Below are positions 35,574 through 46,649 of a stretch of 64,000 nucleotides of DNA, in pieces. Where the stretch lies: positions 124,001-188,000 of the forward strand of contig NZ_JQGK01000001.1 in NCBI RefSeq assembly GCF_000743525.1, given 5' to 3'. Within the stretch, counting starts at the first letter, position 1; each line of letters starts with the position of its first letter. A program made the translations under genes and the position numbers. The stretch comes from Sulfurospirillum sp. SCADC (GTDB lineage: Bacteria > Campylobacterota > Campylobacteria > Campylobacterales > Sulfurospirillaceae). Under the pieces are notes generated by a model that searched no databases, was not told where the DNA came from, and worked only from the letters and a program-made list of their open reading frames with translations.

Positions 35574-37793
35574 TTATTTTACAAGGGATTTAGAGAGCTG
35601 TCCAACACAAATTCCGCCATCGTTGATTGCTAATTGTAGCGGAAAATAGAGATTTTGTGTGACATTTTGAAGAATTTGCTCCATAAGTGTGCGATTTTGA
35701 AACACTCCACCACCGAGTACCGCAGGGTATGGGTAGCGCGAATGTACCTCACAGAGAATTTTGACCAGTGTATTTAAAAACTTAGACGCGATCACGCGAG
35801 GCTCACTCTCTTTAAGCATTTGGGCAAACATGGGTTTGTAACGGACCAATTTAGCGTCAATTTCAACCTCATAAAATTCTGTAATCAAAGGATCGTAGAG
35901 TGCTTCAAGAAGCAATCCACTCTCGCCATCGTAACTCACATTGCCCTCCATGCCGCACAAAACCGCTACCGCATCAAAGAGTCTTCCCACAGAGGAACAG
36001 CGTGGTGCATTGATCTTTTTGGTATACACCTGTTTAAGGCGTTGGAGCGATTTTTCATCGAAATACTTTAACAGATGCGCATCCGCATCGTCGCCTAAAA
36101 CATCCCACAACAGCGAGGCTAAAATACGTCTGATCTCTTTGATGCTTGCATCCCCTCCCAAGAGTAAAAAAGGCTCAAACGAGACGACACGCTCATAACT
36201 CTTTTGATCACACACCAAAAACTCGCCACCCCAAATCGTGCCATCGTCTCCATACCCCGTACCATCCCACGCAATTCCAAGGACGGGTTCACTAAGATGA
36301 TGCTCAAACATCGTCGAAAGAATATGTGCATAATGGTGTTGGACTTGCATAAAAGGAATTTTTTGCTTTTTTGCCCATTGGGTTGAGGCGTAATGGGGGT
36401 GCAGATCACCCACAATCAGATCCGGTTTAAAGTCGTAAAAACGGGTGAAATTCTCTATCATTCTTTCAAAAAGTTCAAGAGACGCGATGTTATCCAAATC
36501 CCCAATGTAAGGGCTGATGATCATTTGATGATGAAGGTAAATCGCAATCGCATTTTTTTGATGCGCGCCTACGGCTAAAATCATACGCTCATCGTTTGAA
36601 TCCACGCGAAAACTCTGCGGTGCCATGCCCCTCGATGCACGCATAATGAGGGTTTGATCGCCCAAGTATTGCAAAACGCTATCATCACTGGAATTGACGA
36701 TCTCACGGTTGTAATCAAGATAATACTCCACCACGTCGCTTAATTTTTCCACCAAAAAGGACGCGTCGCTGATAATAGGCTCACCCGAACGATTGGCACT
36801 GGTCGCGACGATGGGGTTTTTGAGGTACTCAAACAAGATTACATGTAAAGGGGTGTAGGGCAAGAAAACACCGAGGCGATCAATGCGTGGTGCGATCAGT
36901 GGACTTATTTTAGCGGCGCTAACTTGGCACTTCACAAGCACAATCGGACGAAGCAGTGATGTAATGCCCTCCTCTTCGTGTGGGCTTAACGTACACACGT
37001 CTTTGATCGCATCAAGGTTTTTAAACATCACCGCAAAGGGTTTGGAAGGTCTGCGTTTTCGTTCCCTTAAACGCGCAACAACGGCGTCATTGGTCGCATC
37101 ACACATCAGATGAAAACCACCCATCCCTTTCATCGCGACGATATGCCCAGCATTTATCAGCTCGGCTAATGTTTGAATCGCCGCTTCGTTAATGCCCAGT
37201 AATTCACCCTCTATCGAACGTAATGTGAGGGTTGGTCCACAGTTGGAACAACTGATGGGTTGGGCGTGGTAACGACGGTTTAAGGGATTGGTATATTCCT
37301 CTTGGCACGCGTCACACATTTCAAAAGGGTGCATCGACGTATACGGACGATCATAAGGTACGGTTTGAATGATGGAGTAACGAGGGCCGCAATTCGTGCA
37401 ATTGGTAAAAAAGTAGTGGTAACGGCGATTGGTTGGGTCGTGCAACTCTTTGAGGCACTCATCGCAAATTGACATATCGGGCAGAACCAGTGAGGATTTT
37501 GTGCTCGCTTCATCGCTATGGTGGATTTCAAACGTGGTATCGTCTTTACATGTAAGGATTTCTTTTGTGTAAACATCGATGCGCGCAAGCGGAGGAAGTT
37601 CTTTAAACAAAGCCAGCTCAAATGCTTCAAGACTCTCTTTAAACCCTTCGATCTCAATCGTAACACCGTTGGAACTGTTAAATACAAAACCTGTAAGGTT
37701 GTAGCGAAGAGCAATCGTATAGACAAAGGGGCGAAATCCAACCCCTTGGACGATACCTTCGATACGATAAATCAGACGCGATTTACTGATCAA
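35574..37793 (-). CDS. hypF: Carbamoyltransferase HypF
   Basis: Uses carbamoyl phosphate and ATP to supply the carbamoyl group for the CN ligands. 739 residues: acylphosphatase-like domain (RIEGIVQGVGFRPFVYTIA), two zinc-finger repeats (CDECLKEL...CTNCGPRY and CDACQEEY...CSNCGP), YrdC-like domain (GMGGFHLMCDATND), and Kae1-like domain with HHYAHI and the GGVFQN loop. It starts with TTG inside the last codons of hydE (11-base overlap); no better ATG exists nearby. It is separated from hypBCDEA by the accessory islet. Confidence 0.95.
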   Translation of the reverse strand: MISKSRLIYRIEGIVQGVGFRPFVYTIALRYNLTGFVFNSSNGVTIEIEGFKESLEAFELALFKELPPLARIDVYTKEILTCKDDTTFEIHHSDEASTKSSLVLPDMSICDECLKELHDPTNRRYHYFFTNCTNCGPRYSIIQTVPYDRPYTSMHPFEMCDACQEEYTNPLNRRYHAQPISCSNCGPTLTLRSIEGELLGINEAAIQTLAELINAGHIVAMKGMGGFHLMCDATNDAVVARLRERKRRPSKPFAVMFKNLDAIKDVCTLSPHEEEGITSLLRPIVLVKCQVSAAKISPLIAPRIDRLGVFLPYTPLHVILFEYLKNPIVATSANRSGEPIISDASFLVEKLSDVVEYYLDYNREIVNSSDDSVLQYLGDQTLIMRASRGMAPQSFRVDSNDERMILAVGAHQKNAIAIYLHHQMIISPYIGDLDNIASLELFERMIENFTRFYDFKPDLIVGDLHPHYASTQWAKKQKIPFMQVQHHYAHILSTMFEHHLSEPVLGIAWDGTGYGDDGTIWGGEFLVCDQKSYERVVSFEPFLLLGGDASIKEIRRILASLLWDVLGDDADAHLLKYFDEKSLQRLKQVYTKKINAPRCSSVGRLFDAVAVLCGMEGNVSYDGESGLLLEALYDPLITEFYEVEIDAKLVRYKPMFAQMLKESEPRVIASKFLNTLVKILCEVHSRYPYPAVLGGGVFQNRTLMEQILQNVTQNLYFPLQLAINDGGICVGQLSKSLVK

Positions 37794-39438
37794 TCGGCAA
37801 CTCTTTATTAAAACAGATCGTATGATTGGGTTTAAGATTTTTGATGATCATCTCAGAAAAACGTTTATAGCCAAAAAGAGAACCACACAACGCCATCTTC
37901 ATACTCATCAAGTTTTCTTTATGCGCATCGGCAAGATCAGAGATAAAATACGAAAGGCTCTCCATATACCCAAAACTTAAGGTCGTGTTATCGGTACCTG
38001 CGAGTTTAAAGCTCATACCACTGCGAAGCAGTCTGACGTAATCAAGATTGGAGCTCAGCGCGTCCTCTTTTTGCAAAAAGTAGTCAATGCGTGGCCCTTT
38101 AAGTCCACCAAAATCTTCTGCATTTTCTAAAAGTTGCTCACCTGCGCGCTCAAAATCATCGCTTAACCCTAAAGCGATTGCCATCATTTTCCACAGTGAA
38201 TAGACACTTTTGGGTGTATCGCTTGGAATGTTGGTTGCAATGGCTTTGGCGTAAATCTCAGGAAATTGCTCTTTATAATGTGATACCAAACGCTCTGCAC
38301 TTTCGCTACTTCGCTCGACTTCGGCAAAAAGTTCTTCAAAAGAAGAAGGCAGTGAAATCTCGACAAGATTAAGCATGCCATGCTCTTTGGAGTAGTGCAT
38401 CATGCGATCATTGTGAAGGGTACTAAAGTAAAAACAGCTTGATACCGCATCAAACAGTTGATGCTCTTGCATGATAGACGCAAACGCGGCATGCGAAGGT
38501 TCTTCAAATTTTTTCAAACTACCTTTCAGTGCCATGGAAGCATAGTCACTTCCCTTAAGAATAAGAATCGCACCATTTTCAAGCACGCTGATGGTGAGTG
38601 GTTCTAAGGCATTTTGTGTGGCACTCATTGTCACACGGTATGTTGCTTGGCACGATGAGGCTTTGAAAAGAAACTGAATACCTTTTGCAAACAGATGTTT
38701 CGAAAGCTGATAGAGAAAAAGATTATCGGCAAGACGTAAGGTGACACGCGCTTGTGTAATAATTTCTTTTTGTGCAAACAGCGCATTGACTTTAAAACGA
38801 ATCGCAGGACGCTCCAACGAAGCCAACGCTTTGATCTCATTTTCCCTGCACACAACCATGCGCTCAACAACCGACAAATCGGTCGCGATCACTTCAAAGG
38901 CTTTACACTCAGTGCAATTTTCAATTTTACCAAAGACAAACGAGCCATTTTTGGTTTGAATCGACACATTTTCACCATTTGAAATCAGTTCAGCAACGTT
39001 GCTATAAAGCGTTTCATAGCCTGCCGATGTGTTTACATGTAAAAGCTCTTTCTCGTCATGAAAAAGGCTTACATGTAACGCTTCTTCACCCAAAATCGGT
39101 GAGAGATAGTGTGGCGAACTTGGTGCATCAACGGAAGCCAAGATTTTAGGCGTAAACTCCACGTTGTAGGATAAAGGAGGCAAAACTTCTGCCTCATCTG
39201 GCATGGTATCCACCACTTCAACACTCGAAGATTTGAAGAAAATGGACAGAGGAAGTGAGGCGGAGAGTGTATCGGCGAATGAGCCTAACGTGGCTTCATC
39301 GGCATCCACAAAAAGCGTTACAATCGATTCTTTACGGTTAATTTTATGTAAAACTCCACAATCAAACGCAATCTCTTTCAGTAAATGTTCTAAAATGCCA
39401 TTATGCGAGACATAATTAAATTCAAAGGCTAAGATCAT
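37783..39438 (-). CDS. hydE: HydE, hydrogenase accessory protein of epsilonproteobacteria
   Basis: 551 residues from the ATG at 39438, preceded by a perfect GGAGG. The position hydA-B-C-D-E-hypF and the size match the HydE found in hydrogenase operons of this group, whose biochemical role is not established to my knowledge. The first half seems distantly related to HypF. It has a small N-terminal domain of acylphosphatase size, a single CTEC pair, and a stretch MVVCRENEIKALASLERPAIRF that parallels the YrdC-part text of HypF. The catalytic zinc fingers and the Kae1 metal site are not seen. A scaffold or hydrogenase-specific chaperone role is inferred. Confidence 0.75.
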   Translation of the reverse strand: MILAFEFNYVSHNGILEHLLKEIAFDCGVLHKINRKESIVTLFVDADEATLGSFADTLSASLPLSIFFKSSSVEVVDTMPDEAEVLPPLSYNVEFTPKILASVDAPSSPHYLSPILGEEALHVSLFHDEKELLHVNTSAGYETLYSNVAELISNGENVSIQTKNGSFVFGKIENCTECKAFEVIATDLSVVERMVVCRENEIKALASLERPAIRFKVNALFAQKEIITQARVTLRLADNLFLYQLSKHLFAKGIQFLFKASSCQATYRVTMSATQNALEPLTISVLENGAILILKGSDYASMALKGSLKKFEEPSHAAFASIMQEHQLFDAVSSCFYFSTLHNDRMMHYSKEHGMLNLVEISLPSSFEELFAEVERSSESAERLVSHYKEQFPEIYAKAIATNIPSDTPKSVYSLWKMMAIALGLSDDFERAGEQLLENAEDFGGLKGPRIDYFLQKEDALSSNLDYVRLLRSGMSFKLAGTDNTTLSFGYMESLSYFISDLADAHKENLMSMKMALCGSLFGYKRFSEMIIKNLKPNHTICFNKELPIDQ

Positions 39439-39974
39439 CGATCCTCCAGACACGACAGATTGGCTACACTTTGGATGTCAATATCGCTGATTTGCTCATA
39501 CGTAAAGCCTAATTCTACAAGATGTTTCAGTAAAACACTCTCCATCACGACACTTCCTTTTAAAACAGCAGGCGTGAGCTCAAGCGTTGTGTCATCCACG
39601 ACTTCAGGAATGATACCAACGATTTTTGTGGGAGGGCGATCTCCTACAAGATCCATCATCGTGAGTGTTTGAAGCATCTCAACTTCATGTGCACTGCCTT
39701 GCCACGTGATCGTGTTGGGGACATTTTCAAAATCGAAAAAGTAGACATCACCGATCTTCCCATCTTGTGCATCCACACAATCAAGAACGACAAGGTATTC
39801 ATACTCAGCAATAACGGGGATTAATCTTTCTGCGAGGGTGCCACCATCAACGAACGTGATCGTGTGCTCAGGCGAAGAAAACTGATACTTTTGTTCAACA
39901 AGGCGGCACAGATGAACTCCGACGCCTTCGTCGGAGAACATCACATTGCCAATACCTAAAATCAACACTTTCAA
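39435..39974 (-). CDS. hydD: Hydrogenase maturation endopeptidase, HyaD type
   Basis: Removes the C-terminal tail of the large subunit HydB after nickel insertion. 179 residues: LILGIGNVMFSDEGVGVHL (Ni-sensing Glu and family start), VDGGTLAERL and VLDCVDAQ (Asp ligand), plus a His near the middle (SAHEVEM). Its stop overlaps the hydE start. HydB carries a matching cleavage tail, whereas HupL does not. Confidence 0.93.
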   Translation of the reverse strand: MKVLILGIGNVMFSDEGVGVHLCRLVEQKYQFSSPEHTITFVDGGTLAERLIPVIAEYEYLVVLDCVDAQDGKIGDVYFFDFENVPNTITWQGSAHEVEMLQTLTMMDLVGDRPPTKIVGIIPEVVDDTTLELTPAVLKGSVVMESVLLKHLVELGFTYEQISDIDIQSVANLSCLEDR

Positions 39975-39986
39975 GCCAAGACTCGC

Positions 39987-40664
39987 TTAGTGTTTCGGGT
40001 GTTGTTTATGAAATTTGTAACCACTAATAATCGCATCCATTGAACCCTCTTTTCCCATGATAGAGTTAAAGATCGCCATATAGATGTGAATCGGTAAGAA
40101 GATCAAGATACCCCACATAACGATGTGGTGGATTTCTCTTACCATAGCAAGTCCGCCAAGCATGGCTTCAATGGGGCGCATATAGTCATATAAAAAGCCC
40201 CCAATACCGCCTGCTTGATACGCATGCACATACAAAATAAGACCTGTAATGCTAATGATAAAAATCATGGTATACAGACCCACGTATGCGATAAACTGCA
40301 ACGGATTATACACACCTCTTAATTGAGGATGTTCCCCCATAAAAAGGTAATATTTAAGCTGCCCAATCCATACTTTTGGACTGACAAAATCTAAAAACGA
40401 TATTCTCTCTTTTGAACTGATACGATCAGCAAAAAAGAGGTATGTTTTAAATAACGTAATGGCAATGAGTAAAAATCCTGCGATTTCATGCCACATTCTG
40501 AATTTTGCATTTAAGAAGAGGATAGGTTCATCTGATGCTTCAGGGGCAATGAACACATAGGTTAAATAAAACCCTGTCACCGTTAATACAAAAATAGCAA
40601 TTGCTCTAAGCCAGTGCGTCCAACGAAGCCCTGCTGAGAACTCAAATTCTATATCTCTTTTCAT
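39987..40664 (-). CDS. hydC: Ni/Fe-hydrogenase b-type cytochrome subunit
   Basis: Membrane anchor that takes electrons from HydA and reduces menaquinone. 225 residues with four or five membrane helices and histidines suited to two b hemes: RWTHWLRA at the N-terminus, MWHEIAGFLL, YVHAY and MVREIHHIVMWGI. It lies 18 bases behind hydB and 12 bases before hydD. Confidence 0.93.
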   Translation of the reverse strand: MKRDIEFEFSAGLRWTHWLRAIAIFVLTVTGFYLTYVFIAPEASDEPILFLNAKFRMWHEIAGFLLIAITLFKTYLFFADRISSKERISFLDFVSPKVWIGQLKYYLFMGEHPQLRGVYNPLQFIAYVGLYTMIFIISITGLILYVHAYQAGGIGGFLYDYMRPIEAMLGGLAMVREIHHIVMWGILIFLPIHIYMAIFNSIMGKEGSMDAIISGYKFHKQHPKH

Positions 40665-40682: not shown

Positions 40683-42431
40683 TTAGCAAGACGCACCGTT
40701 AACATTGACCTTATAACTGCTCATCTCATTCCCTTTGGTATCCATGACATGTACTGCACATGCAAGACATGGATCATAAGAATGGATAATCCTTACGATT
40801 TCAAGCGGTTGAGAAAGGTCGGTGATCTTTAAGCCAATCAAAGACTCTTCGTATGAACCTCTAACGCCTTTTGCATCTTTTGGACTTGCATTCCATGTGG
40901 TTGGAACAACCGCTTGGTAGTTTTCAATCACGCCATTTTTAATTTTTACCCAGTGACTCAAAACGCCTCGTGGCACGTTGCCAATATAACGACCTTTGTA
41001 CTCTTTGTTTTTATCAATCTTATAGCTCGTACATGTAGAATCATCGACTTTAAGATTTTGAATCAATGCGGTAAAGGCTTCCAATCCATGATCTGCAATC
41101 ACTTTAGATTCAAGCATACGACATGCAGTACGTCCCAAGGTTGAAGCAACGGCGGTGATAGGAAGACCTGTATCTTTCAAGAATTGATCCACAACCGCTT
41201 TAACACGCTTGTTACCAAGTGCATAGTTCACAACAATGTTTGCCAATGGTCCTACTTGGAGTGGTTTTCCATCGTATCGAGGTGCTTTAATCCATGTGTA
41301 TTTACCGTTTTCATCAATGACTTTTGTAGGCGCCAAAACACCTTTGTCATTAATCGTTTGAGCGTCTTTAAAGCCTGTATAGTTAGGCTCTTGACGACCT
41401 TCGTATGGATGGTACGCTGCATTGTCTTTGTACCATGAATGGGTCGCTTCTTCGGTAATTTTGCTCTCATCAAGGGCGTGAACTTTGAAAGGTTTACCTG
41501 TGATTAAATTGACTACATCTTCGCCCATCATCACACCACTGTCAAACAAGAACTCTTTGGCATTAATTTGGAACTCTTTATAGGTAAAGAGGTTAGCAAC
41601 ACCTAAACCAGCCGTCACGCTTGGTTCGCTTGCATACGCAAGTCCCGCCATCACAAGATCAGGATAATATGCACGGTTAACAAAATCTGCCAACTCCTTG
41701 AACTTTGTCATAAATTCACCTAAGCGCGCTGGAGATTGAAGATCCATAATACATGTCACACCACCCACCGTTAAGCTTTGTGGATGCGGCTGTTTTGCAC
41801 CAAATACGGCCATCATTTGAGCTGCAATACGTTGCATTTCGAGTGCCTTTAAGTAGTGAGAAACAGCGATAAGATTTTGTTCCGGTGTTAATTTATACGT
41901 TGCATGTCCCCAATACGCATTTGCGAATGGTCCAAGATTTCCTTTTTTAACAAACTCTGCCACTCTTTTTTGCGTTGCCACAAGATCATCTGCACCACAC
42001 GCAATAGGAGCATCGGTGTATTTAAATGCCTCAGCAGCCGCCTTGTGCGGATCGGCTTTAAGCGCAGAAACAACATCTACCCAGTCAAGTCCATGAAGAT
42101 GATAAAAATGAACAGGGTGATCATGCAAGAAAAGTGCACAGTTCATTAAGGTACGTGTCAATTTTGCGTTAAGAGGTGGTTCGATACCCAGAGCATCTTC
42201 AACTGCCATAATGCCTGCTTTGTAGTGTGAGTAGGTACAAACACCACAAATTCTTTGGGTCATAAAGCCAGCATCTCTTGGATCTCTACCTTTTAAGATG
42301 GTTTCAATACCTCTCCAAAGTGTTGAAGAAGAGTATGCTTCTGTTACAACATTGTTATCATCAACGATAACTTCAACCCTTAAATGCCCTTCGATTCTGG
42401 TTATTGGATCGACTACGATTCTTTTACTCAT
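40683..42431 (-). CDS. hydB: [NiFe] uptake hydrogenase large subunit
   Basis: Catalytic subunit carrying the Ni-Fe site. 582 residues: RITRIEGHLRVEV at the start, RICGVCTYSHYKAG (first Ni ligand pair) and the C-terminal DPCLACAVH, with cleavage expected after the His. The remaining 21 residues (VMDTKG...) would be removed by HydD. It is exported with HydA by the Tat route and faces the periplasm. Gene order hydA-hydB-hydC is that of group 1 enzymes. Confidence 0.97.
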   Translation of the reverse strand: MSKRIVVDPITRIEGHLRVEVIVDDNNVVTEAYSSSTLWRGIETILKGRDPRDAGFMTQRICGVCTYSHYKAGIMAVEDALGIEPPLNAKLTRTLMNCALFLHDHPVHFYHLHGLDWVDVVSALKADPHKAAAEAFKYTDAPIACGADDLVATQKRVAEFVKKGNLGPFANAYWGHATYKLTPEQNLIAVSHYLKALEMQRIAAQMMAVFGAKQPHPQSLTVGGVTCIMDLQSPARLGEFMTKFKELADFVNRAYYPDLVMAGLAYASEPSVTAGLGVANLFTYKEFQINAKEFLFDSGVMMGEDVVNLITGKPFKVHALDESKITEEATHSWYKDNAAYHPYEGRQEPNYTGFKDAQTINDKGVLAPTKVIDENGKYTWIKAPRYDGKPLQVGPLANIVVNYALGNKRVKAVVDQFLKDTGLPITAVASTLGRTACRMLESKVIADHGLEAFTALIQNLKVDDSTCTSYKIDKNKEYKGRYIGNVPRGVLSHWVKIKNGVIENYQAVVPTTWNASPKDAKGVRGSYEESLIGLKITDLSQPLEIVRIIHSYDPCLACAVHVMDTKGNEMSSYKVNVNGASC

Positions 42432-42446
42432 TTACTTATCCTTCTC

Positions 42447-43604
42447 TTATTCTTCAGTTTTTCCACTGCCCTTAACCGCAGCAATCGCCGCATGAGCCGC
42501 AATACCTACCGCAGTCACAGTCAGAAGCGCCACACCTACTTTATCGGCAGTTTTATCCGCACCTTCGCCATAAACGGTATGGTAGAGTCTATCACCAAGA
42601 GGTTCTTCAAATGGTCCCATATTGTCCCAAAAACCAGGTTCTGAACAACCGATACAGCCGTGTCCTGCTTGAACAGGCCACGAAGTGTGTTGGTTAAATC
42701 GCTCACGTGAACAGTTGTTAAAGGTATAAGGACCTTTACAACCCACTTTATAAAGGCAGAAGCCTTTTTTAGCACCGGCATCGCCGAACTCTTGAACGAA
42801 TTCACCCGCATCGAAATGTCCGCGTCTTTCGCAAAGATCATGGATTCTAAGACCATAAGCCCATTTTGGACGGTTATACGCATCGAGTGCGGGAAGGGTT
42901 CCAAAAAGAATATAATGAAGGACGTTACCGACGATGTTTTTCTCGCTTGGAGGACAGCCTGGCACGTTAATAACGGGTTTATTCGTTACTTTGCTAAGCG
43001 GTTGAGCATTGGTTGGGTTTGGATGTGCTGCTTGGATACCGCCAAAGCTTGAACACGAACCAATGGCAAAAATCGCCGCTGCAGAATCTGCTGCTTTTTT
43101 AGCACTTGCTTGGCCTGTTTGACCATGAGGTCCAACGGTTAAGAAGAATTCACTACTGCCTGCAGGAATACCACCTTCAACCATTAAAATGTATTTACCC
43201 TTGTATTTTTCAATCGCACTCTCTAAATTATGCTCAGCTTGCCAGCCACAGGCGACCATTAATGTCTCGTGGTACTCAAGTGAAATGTGATCAAAAATCA
43301 AACTATCGATGGTTGGAGCATCAGTTCTGAGTAAACTCTCACTACAGCCCGTACACTCAGCCATATGCAACCAAATAACGGGCAAACGATCTGTCAGCTC
43401 CGCTGCTTGTGCCATCAGTGGTGTAAATGTTGAAGGTAATGACAACATAGCAGTAACGCCTGCTGCCCACTTCATAAAATCTCTACGGCTGATACCATGT
43501 TCTTCCATCAGTGCCGCAATAGATTTTTCCTCCTTAATACGGGGGAACTTCTCAAGATTGCTCAGTCTCTCAGCAAGCCTTTCGTACAGTTTAGCGTGTT
43601 CCAT
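42447..43604 (-). CDS. hydA: [NiFe] uptake hydrogenase small subunit, Tat-exported
   Basis: Three-cluster electron-transfer subunit. 385 residues: Tat signal with SRRDFMKWAAG near residue 35, proximal-cluster cysteines in ECTGCSES, then NVPGCPPSE, and the C-terminal CNNCSRE / HGCIGCSEPGFWD cluster ligands. A C-terminal hydrophobic helix (VGVALLTVTAVGIAAHAAIA) anchors the enzyme. It leads the hydABCDE-hypF operon. A TetR-type palindrome lies 75 bases before the start. Confidence 0.97.
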   Translation of the reverse strand: MEHAKLYERLAERLSNLEKFPRIKEEKSIAALMEEHGISRRDFMKWAAGVTAMLSLPSTFTPLMAQAAELTDRLPVIWLHMAECTGCSESLLRTDAPTIDSLIFDHISLEYHETLMVACGWQAEHNLESAIEKYKGKYILMVEGGIPAGSSEFFLTVGPHGQTGQASAKKAADSAAAIFAIGSCSSFGGIQAAHPNPTNAQPLSKVTNKPVINVPGCPPSEKNIVGNVLHYILFGTLPALDAYNRPKWAYGLRIHDLCERRGHFDAGEFVQEFGDAGAKKGFCLYKVGCKGPYTFNNCSRERFNQHTSWPVQAGHGCIGCSEPGFWDNMGPFEEPLGDRLYHTVYGEGADKTADKVGVALLTVTAVGIAAHAAIAAVKGSGKTEE

Positions 43605-43678
43605 AAATTTCTCCTGTGTAAATTTTCCAAGATCAAAAGATTAAGGCATTATTCAGGAATAGACAAATTTTGTTTACC

Positions 43679-43719
43679 TGAATGAGTATTCATTTAGTAT
43701 TAAATCAAAAACTCATTCA
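43679..43719. promoter_or_regulatory. Palindromic TetR-type operator upstream of hydA
   Basis: Minus-strand text TGAATGAGT (fwd 43679-43687) continues into TATTCATTT, giving AATGA-GTAT-TCATT around 43681-43694. A further ACTCATTCA at 43711-43719 is the exact reverse complement of the first 9 bases. On the reverse strand the left box reads AATGAATACTCATTCA, close to the TGAATGA..TCATTCA boxes of some TetR regulators such as Bacillus FadR. A TetR gene heads the adjacent hupSL operon. Binding is inferred. Confidence 0.55.
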
Positions 43720-43844
43720 CAAGATGGCAGGAGAGCATACTTTTAAGATTAATTTAAATCGATAGTGCATAAATGTAACAAATAAAGAAGATAAAAAGTG
43801 TATAGTATTAAAAATATTTAAATTGTCATACTAAAATCAGCTGT

Positions 43845-45188
43845 TTATTGGGTCGTACAGACAGAGCAAACATCAAAACTTTTGAGGATAAAGTCGGCTT
43901 TGGTAAACGAATGTAGACCAATAAGTGCTTTTTGTGCTGTGGAGGGATTTTGCTTATCACCGTTGCCTAAATTCCAAACCGTTGGCGTGATAATATCAAA
44001 CGATTGAATCATCCCTTGCTGCACTTTTACATGATGGATGAGTGAGCCACGAGGTGCTTCAACCACGCCCATTCCCTCGCCACTTAAACTGTGAATATCT
44101 TTTCTGGGCGGAATAAACGAGGGCTCTTTGAGGTTTAAATGCTCTAAAAGCTCTTTGGTGCGCCAAAGCAAATGGGAACACTCCACCGCGCGTGCCACCA
44201 CACGCGTGAGCGCTGCGTCTTTAAATCTTCGGTGAAAATCACGCATCAATGGCTCTTTTGCCACCATGAGGCGTGAGAGAGGACCGACTTCATAATAATT
44301 TTTTTTGTACATGGCACTTTTTGAGTACGTATACCCTTTATGCTTGTCTTCAAAAAAAGTGTGTTCCAAACTCTCATGCACGTATTTGACATCGGCACCC
44401 AACACTGCTGTTTTGGAAGCTTTAAGGCTTCCTTCGTACATGTAAGATGTACCCAAGGCTAAAAAACGATCAAAACTACGTCCCAAACGATCAAAACCGT
44501 GCTTGAGCATCTCATCGATCCCGTAAGAGAGTGCTGAAGGTGCTGACATCACCTGCAAGGCAGAATCAAACTCCAACAACTCTTCTAAACGCATCCCGTA
44601 AAAATGCTCTTCGCAAAAGGCAATCACAGCATCTAAACAGCCAAGCGCGCTGAGCACATCGCTTTTAAGCGGATCGCATGTCACGCCTCCTGCCATCACA
44701 AACGAGCCATGCGGCCACTGTCCTGTAAAATGCGCGCTCATTTTAAGCGTCTCCATAATCGCATTTTGTGCGTGGAACCACTGCTTTTCTTTAAAAGCAT
44801 TGCCGTGATAGGTTGGATCGGAAATTCTTTTTAGCTCTGGTAAGATGGTGAAAAAATACCACTTGATGTGGTTGTGAATCTTCTCAGCATTGAGCGCAAT
44901 TTCACGAATATCTTTGGCTTTTTGGCTTACATGTAAAAGCTCACCTTCGTTTTTATAACACGCTTCGATGGCGTGTACAGAGGCAATGGCATGCGAATGC
45001 GAACAGATGCCACACACACGAGGTGTTAAAGCCAACGCATCCAAAAGCGGACGCTTTTGCAAAATCTCTTCAATGCCACGGTAATTGAAAAATTTGATGC
45101 GCGCGAAGCTGACCTTCTGCTCTTCCCATTCGAGCTCCAAAGTCGCTTCACCCTCGATGCGTTCTATAATCTCTTTAGTGATTTTCAT
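43845..45188 (-). CDS. hupL: Second [NiFe] hydrogenase large subunit, group 2-like, no cleavable tail
   Basis: 447 residues with PRVCGICSHSHAIA (first Ni ligand pair) and a second pair in FDVCSVCTTQ, which are the last residues. The usual His and the extension removed by a maturation peptidase are absent, as in sensor (HupV-like) hydrogenases. It is shorter than HydB and shares little with it outside the ligand regions. It overlaps hupS by 14 bases. The cytoplasmic location is inferred from the unexported small subunit. It could be an uptake enzyme for reductant supply or an H2 sensor. Confidence 0.85.
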   Translation of the reverse strand: MKITKEIIERIEGEATLELEWEEQKVSFARIKFFNYRGIEEILQKRPLLDALALTPRVCGICSHSHAIASVHAIEACYKNEGELLHVSQKAKDIREIALNAEKIHNHIKWYFFTILPELKRISDPTYHGNAFKEKQWFHAQNAIMETLKMSAHFTGQWPHGSFVMAGGVTCDPLKSDVLSALGCLDAVIAFCEEHFYGMRLEELLEFDSALQVMSAPSALSYGIDEMLKHGFDRLGRSFDRFLALGTSYMYEGSLKASKTAVLGADVKYVHESLEHTFFEDKHKGYTYSKSAMYKKNYYEVGPLSRLMVAKEPLMRDFHRRFKDAALTRVVARAVECSHLLWRTKELLEHLNLKEPSFIPPRKDIHSLSGEGMGVVEAPRGSLIHHVKVQQGMIQSFDIITPTVWNLGNGDKQNPSTAQKALIGLHSFTKADFILKSFDVCSVCTTQ

Positions 45189-46065
45189 CGATTAGCTTCT
45201 TTTCAAGTCTTTCGATTTTAAAACTCTTTGCCACACCTGCAAGGCTATAATACGCGCGCTTTGAGATGCCAAAAGGGGTTTGAGGCAAAGACATATTTTT
45301 TTGAGTTTCATACAAAGCAACTCTTGGAAAGTCAAACTCCGTGCATCCTAAACAGGGAGAACCAGCTCTTGTTTTAGAACTCACCCCATTCCACAAAATT
45401 TTATTGCAATTGGCATGACTCATAGGTCCCACACAGCCGTGCTCGTAAAACAAACACCCTTCCCTTTCACCCAGTTGCTGGCTATCGACCTTCCATTCAA
45501 AATATTCATTGCGCAGACAGCCATGATGGACCAAATATGAAAAGACCTCTTTAGGGCGCAAGAAGTCATCTAAAAGCACTTTCTCGCCCACATGCAACGC
45601 TAAGAGTGTCTCCACCAGCCAGCGCGGATGCACGGGACAGCCAGAGATGTTAATGACATTAGCTTTTTCCAACCAATATCCGCCTTTTTCTTTACCACAA
45701 AAGAGTGCGCCTGTAATCTTTTGCGGATCACGTAATCTAAAAACACCGCCAAAACTTGCACAACTGCCTGCGCAGATGATATGCTTCGCACGCGCGGCAA
45801 GAACATCAAGGATTTCATAAAACGCAATTCCAAAACGTTCAATAAGTCTCTCATCATGGCTTAAAGCACCTTCAAGGATTAGAAAATCAAACTTCGTATC
45901 GCTCTTAAGCAGACTGAGGAAATCCTCTGCACCGCATAAAAGCGGATGATACAGCATCTCAAAAGAAGCGGCAAAACTGGGCATCTGTGGGTAGTTAAAA
46001 AAGGAGTGGCTGTTGCCATTACATGTAAGCCCTTGAAGCCAGATGATGGTGGATTTTTGAGACAT
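45175..46065 (-). CDS. hupS: Second [NiFe] hydrogenase small subunit, cytoplasmic
   Basis: 296 residues with neither a Tat signal nor a C-terminal anchor, so cytoplasmic. It begins WLQGLTCNGNSHSF, where most small subunits have CxGC; the second cysteine is replaced by Asn, as I recall for cyanobacterial-type group 2 small subunits. Other cluster ligands are seen in AGSCASFGG, NISGCPVHP, HHGCLRNEYF, HGCVGPMSHANC and GSPCLGCTE. It lies directly behind the TetR gene (shared base) and overlaps hupL. Confidence 0.87.
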   Translation of the reverse strand: MSQKSTIIWLQGLTCNGNSHSFFNYPQMPSFAASFEMLYHPLLCGAEDFLSLLKSDTKFDFLILEGALSHDERLIERFGIAFYEILDVLAARAKHIICAGSCASFGGVFRLRDPQKITGALFCGKEKGGYWLEKANVINISGCPVHPRWLVETLLALHVGEKVLLDDFLRPKEVFSYLVHHGCLRNEYFEWKVDSQQLGEREGCLFYEHGCVGPMSHANCNKILWNGVSSKTRAGSPCLGCTEFDFPRVALYETQKNMSLPQTPFGISKRAYYSLAGVAKSFKIERLEKKLIDENH

Positions 46066-46649
46066 TAGTGTTTGAGCGCATTGTAGATATTGAGCGCAAT
46101 CTCATCAACGTAATGGTTAAGATCTTTTTCCAAAACACCTTCGCCACTTAAAAAAACAAATCCACCCAAATAGCCCATAAACAGCCCAAAAGCAGAGAAA
46201 AAGTCTTGATTGCGAAGTTCCCCACACGCAACACCCTCTTCAAAAAAGATCATCAGCTCTGTCACAAACGATGAGACGCACAGCATGCCCTCACACCCAT
46301 CTTTAAAAACCTCTTTGTTCGCAAGATAAACACGTAAAAAGTAGTTGATGTGCTGTGGTTTGGAAGATGCCATCTCAAAATAGACCGCCACAATTTTGCG
46401 AATCTTCTCTTTGGTGTTTCCCTCTTCTTCGTTCACGCGCCGAATCTCAGCGCCTAAAATATCGGAAGAGTATTTGATGATCTCTTTGGCAAGCATCTCT
46501 TTGGAAGAGAAGTAGTTATACATATTGCCAACACTCATCCCCATCGCTTTGGCAATGTCGGGAATCGTCGTGGCATAAAAACCTCGTGTTGAAAAGAGCA
46601 TTAACGCTGCATCTAAAATTTTTTCGCTTTTACGTAATTTTTTATCCAC
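46065..46649 (-). CDS. TetR-family transcriptional regulator
   Basis: About 194 residues from a GTG at 46647-46649, chosen because AGGAAGG lies 9 bases upstream; an ATG at 46691 lacks a good site. The N-terminal helix-turn-helix is ATTIPDIAKAMGMSVGNMYNYFSSKEML, standard for the family. The ligand-binding C-terminus gives no clue to the inducer. It is co-transcribed with hupSL and may act on the palindrome in front of hydA. Confidence 0.88.
   Translation of the reverse strand: MDKKLRKSEKILDAALMLFSTRGFYATTIPDIAKAMGMSVGNMYNYFSSKEMLAKEIIKYSSDILGAEIRRVNEEEGNTKEKIRKIVAVYFEMASSKPQHINYFLRVYLANKEVFKDGCEGMLCVSSFVTELMIFFEEGVACGELRNQDFFSAFGLFMGYLGGFVFLSGEGVLEKDLNHYVDEIALNIYNALKH

Follow-up and report, generated by a model that had tools for sequence, protein, structure and literature searches.

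The hyd-hup locus and the palindrome in front of hydA

The window, that is the whole stretch of 64,000 nucleotides that was analysed (contig C1:124001-188000 of a genome of 2.66 Mb in 38 contigs), carries two sets of NiFe hydrogenase genes. On the minus strand the order is tetR, hupS, hupL, a 240-bp intergenic region that holds a palindromic box, hydA, hydB, hydC and a HycI-type protease gene, with the following features:

39435..39974, minus strand: hydrogenase maturation protease, HycI family
39987..40664, minus strand: hydC, cytochrome b subunit (Ni_hydr_CYTB)
40683..42431, minus strand: hydB, NiFe large subunit with a 21-residue extension after DPCLACAVH
42447..43604, minus strand: hydA, TAT-bearing NiFe hydrogenase small subunit (TAT_signal model match), the predicted target gene
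43679..43696, minus strand: predicted TetR operator, an 18-bp palindrome, hydA-strand letters TAAATGAATACTCATTCA
43697..43709, minus strand: TTTGATTTAATAC, adjoining the operator on its upstream side, possibly the -10 region of a promoter
43711..43719, no strand: second half-site ACTCATTCA, not conserved, probably not functional
43845..45188, minus strand: hupL, candidate H2 sensor, a NiFe large subunit that ends in SFDVCSVCTTQ and has no C-terminal extension
45175..46065, minus strand: hupS, NiFe small subunit, no TAT signal detected
46065..46649, minus strand: tetR, regulator with an invariant CxxxxC (listed ORF start 46691)

The names hydA, hupS and hupL given in the earlier note are right in kind, all three being NiFe hydrogenase subunits and hydA a TAT-bearing small subunit. 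It had also correctly placed the TetR gene at the head of hupSL, directly upstream of hydA, and called it the only one in the window: PF00440 has four matches in the genome, of which only C1:170479 lies inside. The GTG at 46649 (VDKK) is a likelier start for tetR than 46691, since in some relatives a stop codon precedes 46649. The hyd cluster further encodes a 556-aa protein (37783-39453, minus strand) with no Pfam or NCBIfam match at E 0.001. An Rfam scan of the window returned one tRNA and nothing near the box, and a plasmid search with the hydA region gave no match.

The palindrome reported in front of hydA is indeed there: the 16-mer TGAATGAGTATTCATT (AATGAATACTCATTCA on the minus strand) occupies 43679-43694, and 74 bases separate it from the hydA ATG (43604-43602), where 75 had been claimed. 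The 18-mer TGAATGAGTATTCATTTA (43679-43696), which spans -92 to -75 relative to the ATG, has one mismatch to the perfect palindrome TGAATGA-N4-TCATTCA. A search of the whole genome, as the earlier note had proposed, found this site before hydA to be the only one with at most one mismatch, the next entries in the list having two. Looser matches are another matter: four 16-mer matches with at most three mismatches lie within the window for 1.32 expected, and 3 of 100 shuffles reached four or more. Such three-mismatch matches are not in themselves rare in one window, and this is the argument for taking the box as a chance palindrome in AT-rich DNA, a reading to which the comparison with relatives described below leaves a negligible probability. 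The second half-site that had been attached to the palindrome does exist (ACTCATTCA), but at its position aligned relatives have other bases, the nearest ones GTGAAACATT-like; it is specific to this genome and probably of chance origin.

Of 22 aligned sequences, 15 have TTTGATTTAAT directly before the box, and 10 have TTTGATTTAATAC in full. When 53 loci with a box are scanned by position for TATAAT-like hexamers, the highest count (16 of 53) is for a start 7-14 bp ahead of the box, and a second peak lies near -62 (13/53). The assignment of TTTGATTTAATAC as a -10 region is weak, and the position of the box gives some support to repression; activation is possible as well, because a simple consensus scan of the window proposes a promoter with its -10 downstream of the box.

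Conservation of the box and its association with tetR

The box was scored by its mismatches to TGAATGA-N4-TCATTCA in the regions upstream of hydA, tetR and hupS. Two locus sets (A and B) share six loci and set A holds one near-identical pair; with these seven removed there are 82 distinct tetR loci, 65 of them with a usable hydA region. A box with at most one, two or three mismatches is found in 27, 53 and 63 of the 65 tetR-linked hydA regions, and in 1, 6 and 121 of 2840 dinucleotide-shuffled hydA regions; the contrast of 53/65 with 6/2840 is what speaks against a chance palindrome. Base counts over the 53 boxes give TRAATGAWTAWTCATTYA or near it, and three Aquificota loci (L154, L155 and L156) belong to the 53. 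The 12 misses at the two-mismatch mark include an Aquificaceae locus (L152) that has a one-mismatch box just outside the scored region. Elsewhere in the same loci boxes are rare (1 in 244 kb of set A, 8 in 520 kb of set B). The box is thus kept in relatives that have both genes, so the claim of the earlier note is not refuted by the comparison of hydA upstream regions that it had suggested.

In hydA regions without a neighbouring tetR, the same three marks are reached by 0, 1 and 4 of 15; these come from 16 loci, L091 being left out as its contig ends there, and in three of the 15 the hydA is a second copy, TetR lying elsewhere in the genome. Set D, another four hydA regions from TetR genomes that were retrieved on their own (L105, L107, L108 and L109), gives 0, 1 and 3 of 4. 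Upstream of tetR the box is found in 0 of 80 distinct regions at two mismatches and in 9 at three, and upstream of hupS in 1 and 8 of 71. Apparently hupSL itself is not under the box, because none of the 80 tetR upstream regions has one with at most two mismatches, and control seems to be one-way. Of the cross-regulation of the two hydrogenases envisaged in the earlier note, the part that stands is therefore the probable control of hyd by TetR, on which the 53/65 count and the genome counts given below agree; the part concerning hupSL apparently does not (0/80).

Of 60 genomes searched, 37 (its own included) have an orthologue of this TetR with at least 58% identity; 36 of these 37 also have a HupL relative (E 1e-30), which turned up in no other genome of the 60. 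The gene order tetR-hupS-hupL-hydAB recurs across families. In named genomes, the best 80 of 455 TetR matches yielded at least 52 orthologous loci with 51-92% identity, six of which were already in the other locus set; within these best 80 of 455, some loci belong to Aquificota, judging from the titles (Persephonella, Aquifex, Aquificaceae, Hydrogenothermaceae), and the nearest TetR-bearing genome is that of Sulfurospirillum diekertiae JPD-1 (L110). A wider sample comprised 200 order-level genomes (completeness filter 95%, threshold E 1e-35 for TetR and HupL), 97 with TetR and 91 with HupL. All 91 HupL-bearing genomes have TetR, within 3.5 kb in 88 and split over contigs in the other three, and at E 1e-35 HupL was not found in any of the 103 genomes without TetR. 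The exact core AATGANYANTCATTYA, searched in 300 genomes that include the 200, is present in 68 of the 97 TetR-bearing genomes and absent from 29, versus presence in 6 of the 103 others; the genomes being related by descent, these counts are not independent, and Fisher values overstate their independence.

Could the box be bound by another regulator, the link to tetR being one of gene neighbourhood alone? One genome (G027) does have a two-mismatch box and neither an orthologous TetR nor HupL. Against this, the box core tracks TetR across the 200 genomes; L109 has tetR divergent from hydA with a two-mismatch box in between; in L154-L156 tetR has other neighbours, a GGDEF or a ferredoxin gene, and the box stays near hydA; and the other three TetRs of the genome have different recognition helices. 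We judge binding by another regulator to be highly unlikely. On these comparisons it is near certain that the neighbouring TetR has its operator in the box, and this TetR very probably controls the hyd operon.

Genomes that lack one of the partners add to this picture. Six TetR-bearing genomes are without HupL at E 1e-35; three fall just short of the threshold (G112, G130, G147), and three (G033, G126, G155) have only weak matches to other hydrogenases and no HupL, tetR lying at a contig edge in G126. TetR can persist without HupL, as the last three show. G033, from another genus of the family, keeps TetR and the box before hydA; in the same genus, G027 has the box as stated above, and G035 has neither tetR nor hupL and a best box of four mismatches, a pattern that looks like stepwise loss. 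Where orthologous tetR and hupL are both missing (G004, G015), the box position reads TAAATGAATAATCATGTA, with three mismatches, and the best match in the hydA region of G013 has five. In five Aquificota (G313-G316, G319) the fetched tetR locus is without hupL, which lies elsewhere in the genome.

In L154 (Aquificaceae/Aquifex) a GGDEF-domain gene follows tetR and precedes hydA, and L155 has a GGDEF-domain gene that is near-identical to it by eye; in L156 (Aquifex) a [2Fe-2S] ferredoxin gene lies between tetR and hydA. In all three cases hupL is elsewhere in the genome.

The TetR regulator and the genes behind boxes

The HTH of the regulator matches PF00440 with 61.9 bits (gathering cut-off 24). 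Its structure model is all-helical (pLDDT 91.4) and its best folds are TetR structures, Bacillus FadR (3whb) being among the closest with a TM of 0.77. The recognition helix reads SVG(N/S)xYNYF in 52 of 52 named-genome loci, the second position being A or S in four rows of another alignment, and of the four TetRs of the genome only this one has the YNYF helix. Two cysteines, C133 and C138 (208-aa numbering), are invariant in alignments A1 (33 rows) and A2 (53 rows), and the loop between them reads C-E-G-M/F-x-C in most rows. Residues 112-189, a stretch chosen after the alignment was seen, show about 80% mean per-column identity versus 74% for the HTH and 72% for residues 69-207 as a whole. Conservation this strong in the effector core suggests that the signal or partner is a single, fixed one.

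The CxxxxC motif was rejected as a clean mark of orthologues, since the cysteines vary among five paralogues: L086 has the pair, spaced one residue wider; L087 has neither; and in L088, L089 and L192 cysteines occur at shifted places. A scan of viral contigs for a relative of this TetR found none. In L192 (G045:C21) a box at 1988 has a TetR paralogue (43% identity) on one side and a divergent gene, ModE-like by eye, on the other, so one type of operator may serve paralogues that share the recognition helix. Unrelated TetR genes with a YNYF helix (L171, L179 and L181) have TGAnTGA-N4-TCAnTCA-like sites upstream, within 25 bp of their own start in L179 and L181 and about 260 bp away in L171. Matches from Bacillales were considered as FadR and rejected, since by length and sequence (by eye) they looked like other TetRs.

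The earlier note had raised a link to the lipid or acyl-CoA state, and the TetR might, as a FadR-like regulator, bind acyl-CoA and tie hydrogenase expression to it. The fold of Bacillus FadR would fit, as would its operator, which we take to be a TGAATGA-type palindrome that the box resembles (FadR consensus strings were not found in the literature searched), and one site (L245) lies just past the 3' end of an acetyl-CoA synthetase-like gene (by eye). However, the FadR model NF053878 scores 43.1 bits against a curated cut-off of 200, below the BetI and ScbR models; no fatty-acid degradation gene was recognised directly downstream of the inspected boxes, a sample read mostly by eye; and the like sites of the unrelated YNYF TetRs imply that this operator type is not specific to FadR. 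The regulator also differs from Bacillus FadR in having hydrogenase genes as predicted main targets and an invariant CxxxxC loop. Beyond a TetR fold that resembles FadR among others, the lipid link finds no support and is very improbable.

Genes behind boxes in other genomes include further hydrogenase functions. The three exact sites of G057 stand before hydA, before a CbiM gene and before a gene of the CobW/HypB family that reads as hypB. L152 has a second box, with two mismatches, just before hypC (Pfam) and after a gene that reads as hypA, and in L155 one box precedes the small subunit of another NiFe hydrogenase. We fetched 20 sites of other genomes, hand-picked from the core-match list for multi-site genomes; across all the boxes inspected, genes were named by eye except for 10 proteins run against Pfam. 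Some of these sites precede hydA or second hydA copies, one a cytochrome b561 with a dihaem cytochrome c domain (L237) and two antiporter-type membrane subunits (L247, L248; by eye unless Pfam); others lie before NrfH-like cytochromes, a chemotaxis-like gene, small ORFs and genes of no recognised kind. In another group of sites, those of L193, L194 and L196 and one in L198 are inside reading frames and probably due to chance, and those of L192, L195 and L197 precede other genes. Boxes also stand before non-hydrogenase genes in family f9, which we take for Arcobacteraceae.

In L235 and L249 the box is about 60-90 bp before NrfH-like cytochrome genes (by eye). In four f9 loci, L236, L239, L241 and L243 (locus positions 1517, 1478, 1516 and 1457), it immediately precedes a short ORF that is not annotated, has about 30 residues and stands beside a UDG-like gene; by eye the ORF seems to have one membrane span, and it looks like a box-controlled small membrane protein.

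HupSL and a possible H2 switch

HupL has retained both Cys pairs, and its chain stops three residues past the final Cys in 33 of 34 aligned rows, the exception (L069) being cut short where its contig stops. The same holds for 11 of 12 further loci, L278 being in pieces; the HydB of the window runs 21 residues past its motif. The TAT_signal model matches HydA and gives no match in HupS. Lack of a C-terminal extension in the large subunit and of a TAT signal are features of regulatory hydrogenases, one of which is said to have been studied in a mussel symbiont, and HupL and HupS have both features. The best PDB match of HupL is 7utd, 'Hydrogenase-2, large subunit', presumably the Huc enzyme. In one contig that carries two labels (L064/L112), hydB is without residues 360-448, and in a MAG contig (L150) hupL, hydA and hydB are fragmented; faulty assembly or decay of the genes would account for either.

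We consider it probable that the box is a TetR operator through which hydABCD is repressed, with HupSL as the H2-sensing partner. A TetR dimer would bind TGAATGAWTAWTCATTCA at or beside the hydA transcription start and so repress hydABCD, the operon of the membrane-bound uptake hydrogenase, and in some genomes would also control the maturation genes hypB and hypC and a CbiM-type nickel/cobalt transporter gene. The genes tetR-hupS-hupL would form a separate low-level operon outside box control. When H2 is present, the state of HupSL would be passed to the TetR effector domain with its invariant CxxxxC loop, the signalled TetR would leave the operator, and no histidine kinase would take part in this switch. 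The operator and its target have the support of comparative computation, and so has the pairing of TetR with HupSL; that TetR represses and does not activate, that H2 is the signal and that it is transferred directly is what we infer. That HupSL senses H2 at all could go either way. That it does so by signalling directly to TetR, by contact or by electrons to the CxxxxC loop, we propose tentatively, with doubt slightly prevailing; the ferredoxin gene between tetR and hydA in L156 is cited for the electron route.

In the parts of the literature covered here, HupSL is linked to carbon fixation, possibly to H2 sensing, or left unexplained. Group 2d has been assigned to an enzyme of a Sulfurospirillum strain, and this group to the supply of reductant for the rTCA cycle and carbon fixation (PMC11406935, in part). 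An alternative is that TetR controls hydABCD via the box but senses nickel, cellular redox, an Fe-S or a small-molecule signal, while HupSL is a catalytic cytoplasmic group 2d enzyme, merely co-inherited, that might for example deliver low-potential electrons to carbon fixation. Besides the group 2d assignment, it agrees with G033, where TetR and the box before hydA occur without HupL, and with G155, which has TetR, one exact core site (its place in the genome uninspected) and no HupL; the CbiM-type transporter gene behind a box in G057 would fit a nickel signal. It also agrees with S. multivorans, where hydB transcripts were present in nearly every condition and rose with H2 and PCE by a factor of only about two, which was not significant; the authors suggested a missing H2 sensor and constitutive expression (PMC5357620, in part); such near-constitutive expression argues against strong H2 induction under those conditions. 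On the other hand, HupL was not found in the 103 genomes without TetR, Aquificota retain HupL with TetR even when the two are not adjacent, HupL is without the C-terminal maturation extension, and hupL is almost untranscribed in S. multivorans (PMC5357620, in part), which suits a sensor better than a bulk catalyst. We regard this alternative, with another signal for TetR and a catalytic, co-inherited HupSL, as rather unlikely.

Turning again to HupSL as the partner of a repressor, S. multivorans has the same tetR-hupSL gene neighbourhood as here, and its authors proposed that TetR 'might repress' hupSL (PMC5357620, in part). That suggestion concerned tetR-hupSL, where a box with at most two mismatches is found in 0 of 80 tetR upstream regions, whereas the conserved operator described here lies before hydA. 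It is the only mention of TetR control of a hydrogenase, or of a redox TetR, in the parts covered of the literature searched (PMC5357620, PMC4584990, PMC2147049, PMC12029903, PMC11406935). As far as this literature goes, a hydrogenase-linked TetR operator spanning two phyla and the close pairing of TetR with HupSL are new. For Campylobacterota and Aquificota, oxidising H2 is one of the main ways of gaining energy. The S. multivorans study came to the conclusion that an H2 sensor is missing, as are regulatory proteins besides NikR (PMC5357620, in part). A conserved repressor-operator pair together with an apparently unprocessed hydrogenase would supply a gene, an exact predicted binding site and a direct test, and would give the HupSL enzymes a function. 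If the reading is true, a one-component, kinase-free H2 switch would operate across Campylobacterota and Aquificota, controlling the uptake hydrogenase and, in some genomes, also maturation and nickel/cobalt import.

NikR controls nickel uptake and hydrogenase genes in epsilonproteobacteria. The TetR described here resembles NikR (named in PMC5357620, in part) in that nickel uptake and hydrogenase genes would come under one regulator, and differs from it in protein family and in operator.

The regulatory hydrogenases HupUV/HoxBC are like HupSL in being NiFe enzymes without TAT signal or C-terminal extension whose genes stand next to those of an uptake hydrogenase, which HupSL would likewise regulate; a study by Kleihues from 2000 reportedly dealt with such a system. 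They work with the kinase HupT/HoxJ and with HupR/HoxA, whereas the conserved neighbours of hupSL in the loci compared are hydAB and tetR, a one-component regulator, and no kinase or response regulator was found among the nine hyd/hup cluster proteins scanned. A further difference lies in the last motif of the large subunit, which is DVC or DIC in HupL and DPC in the HupUV/HoxBC systems.
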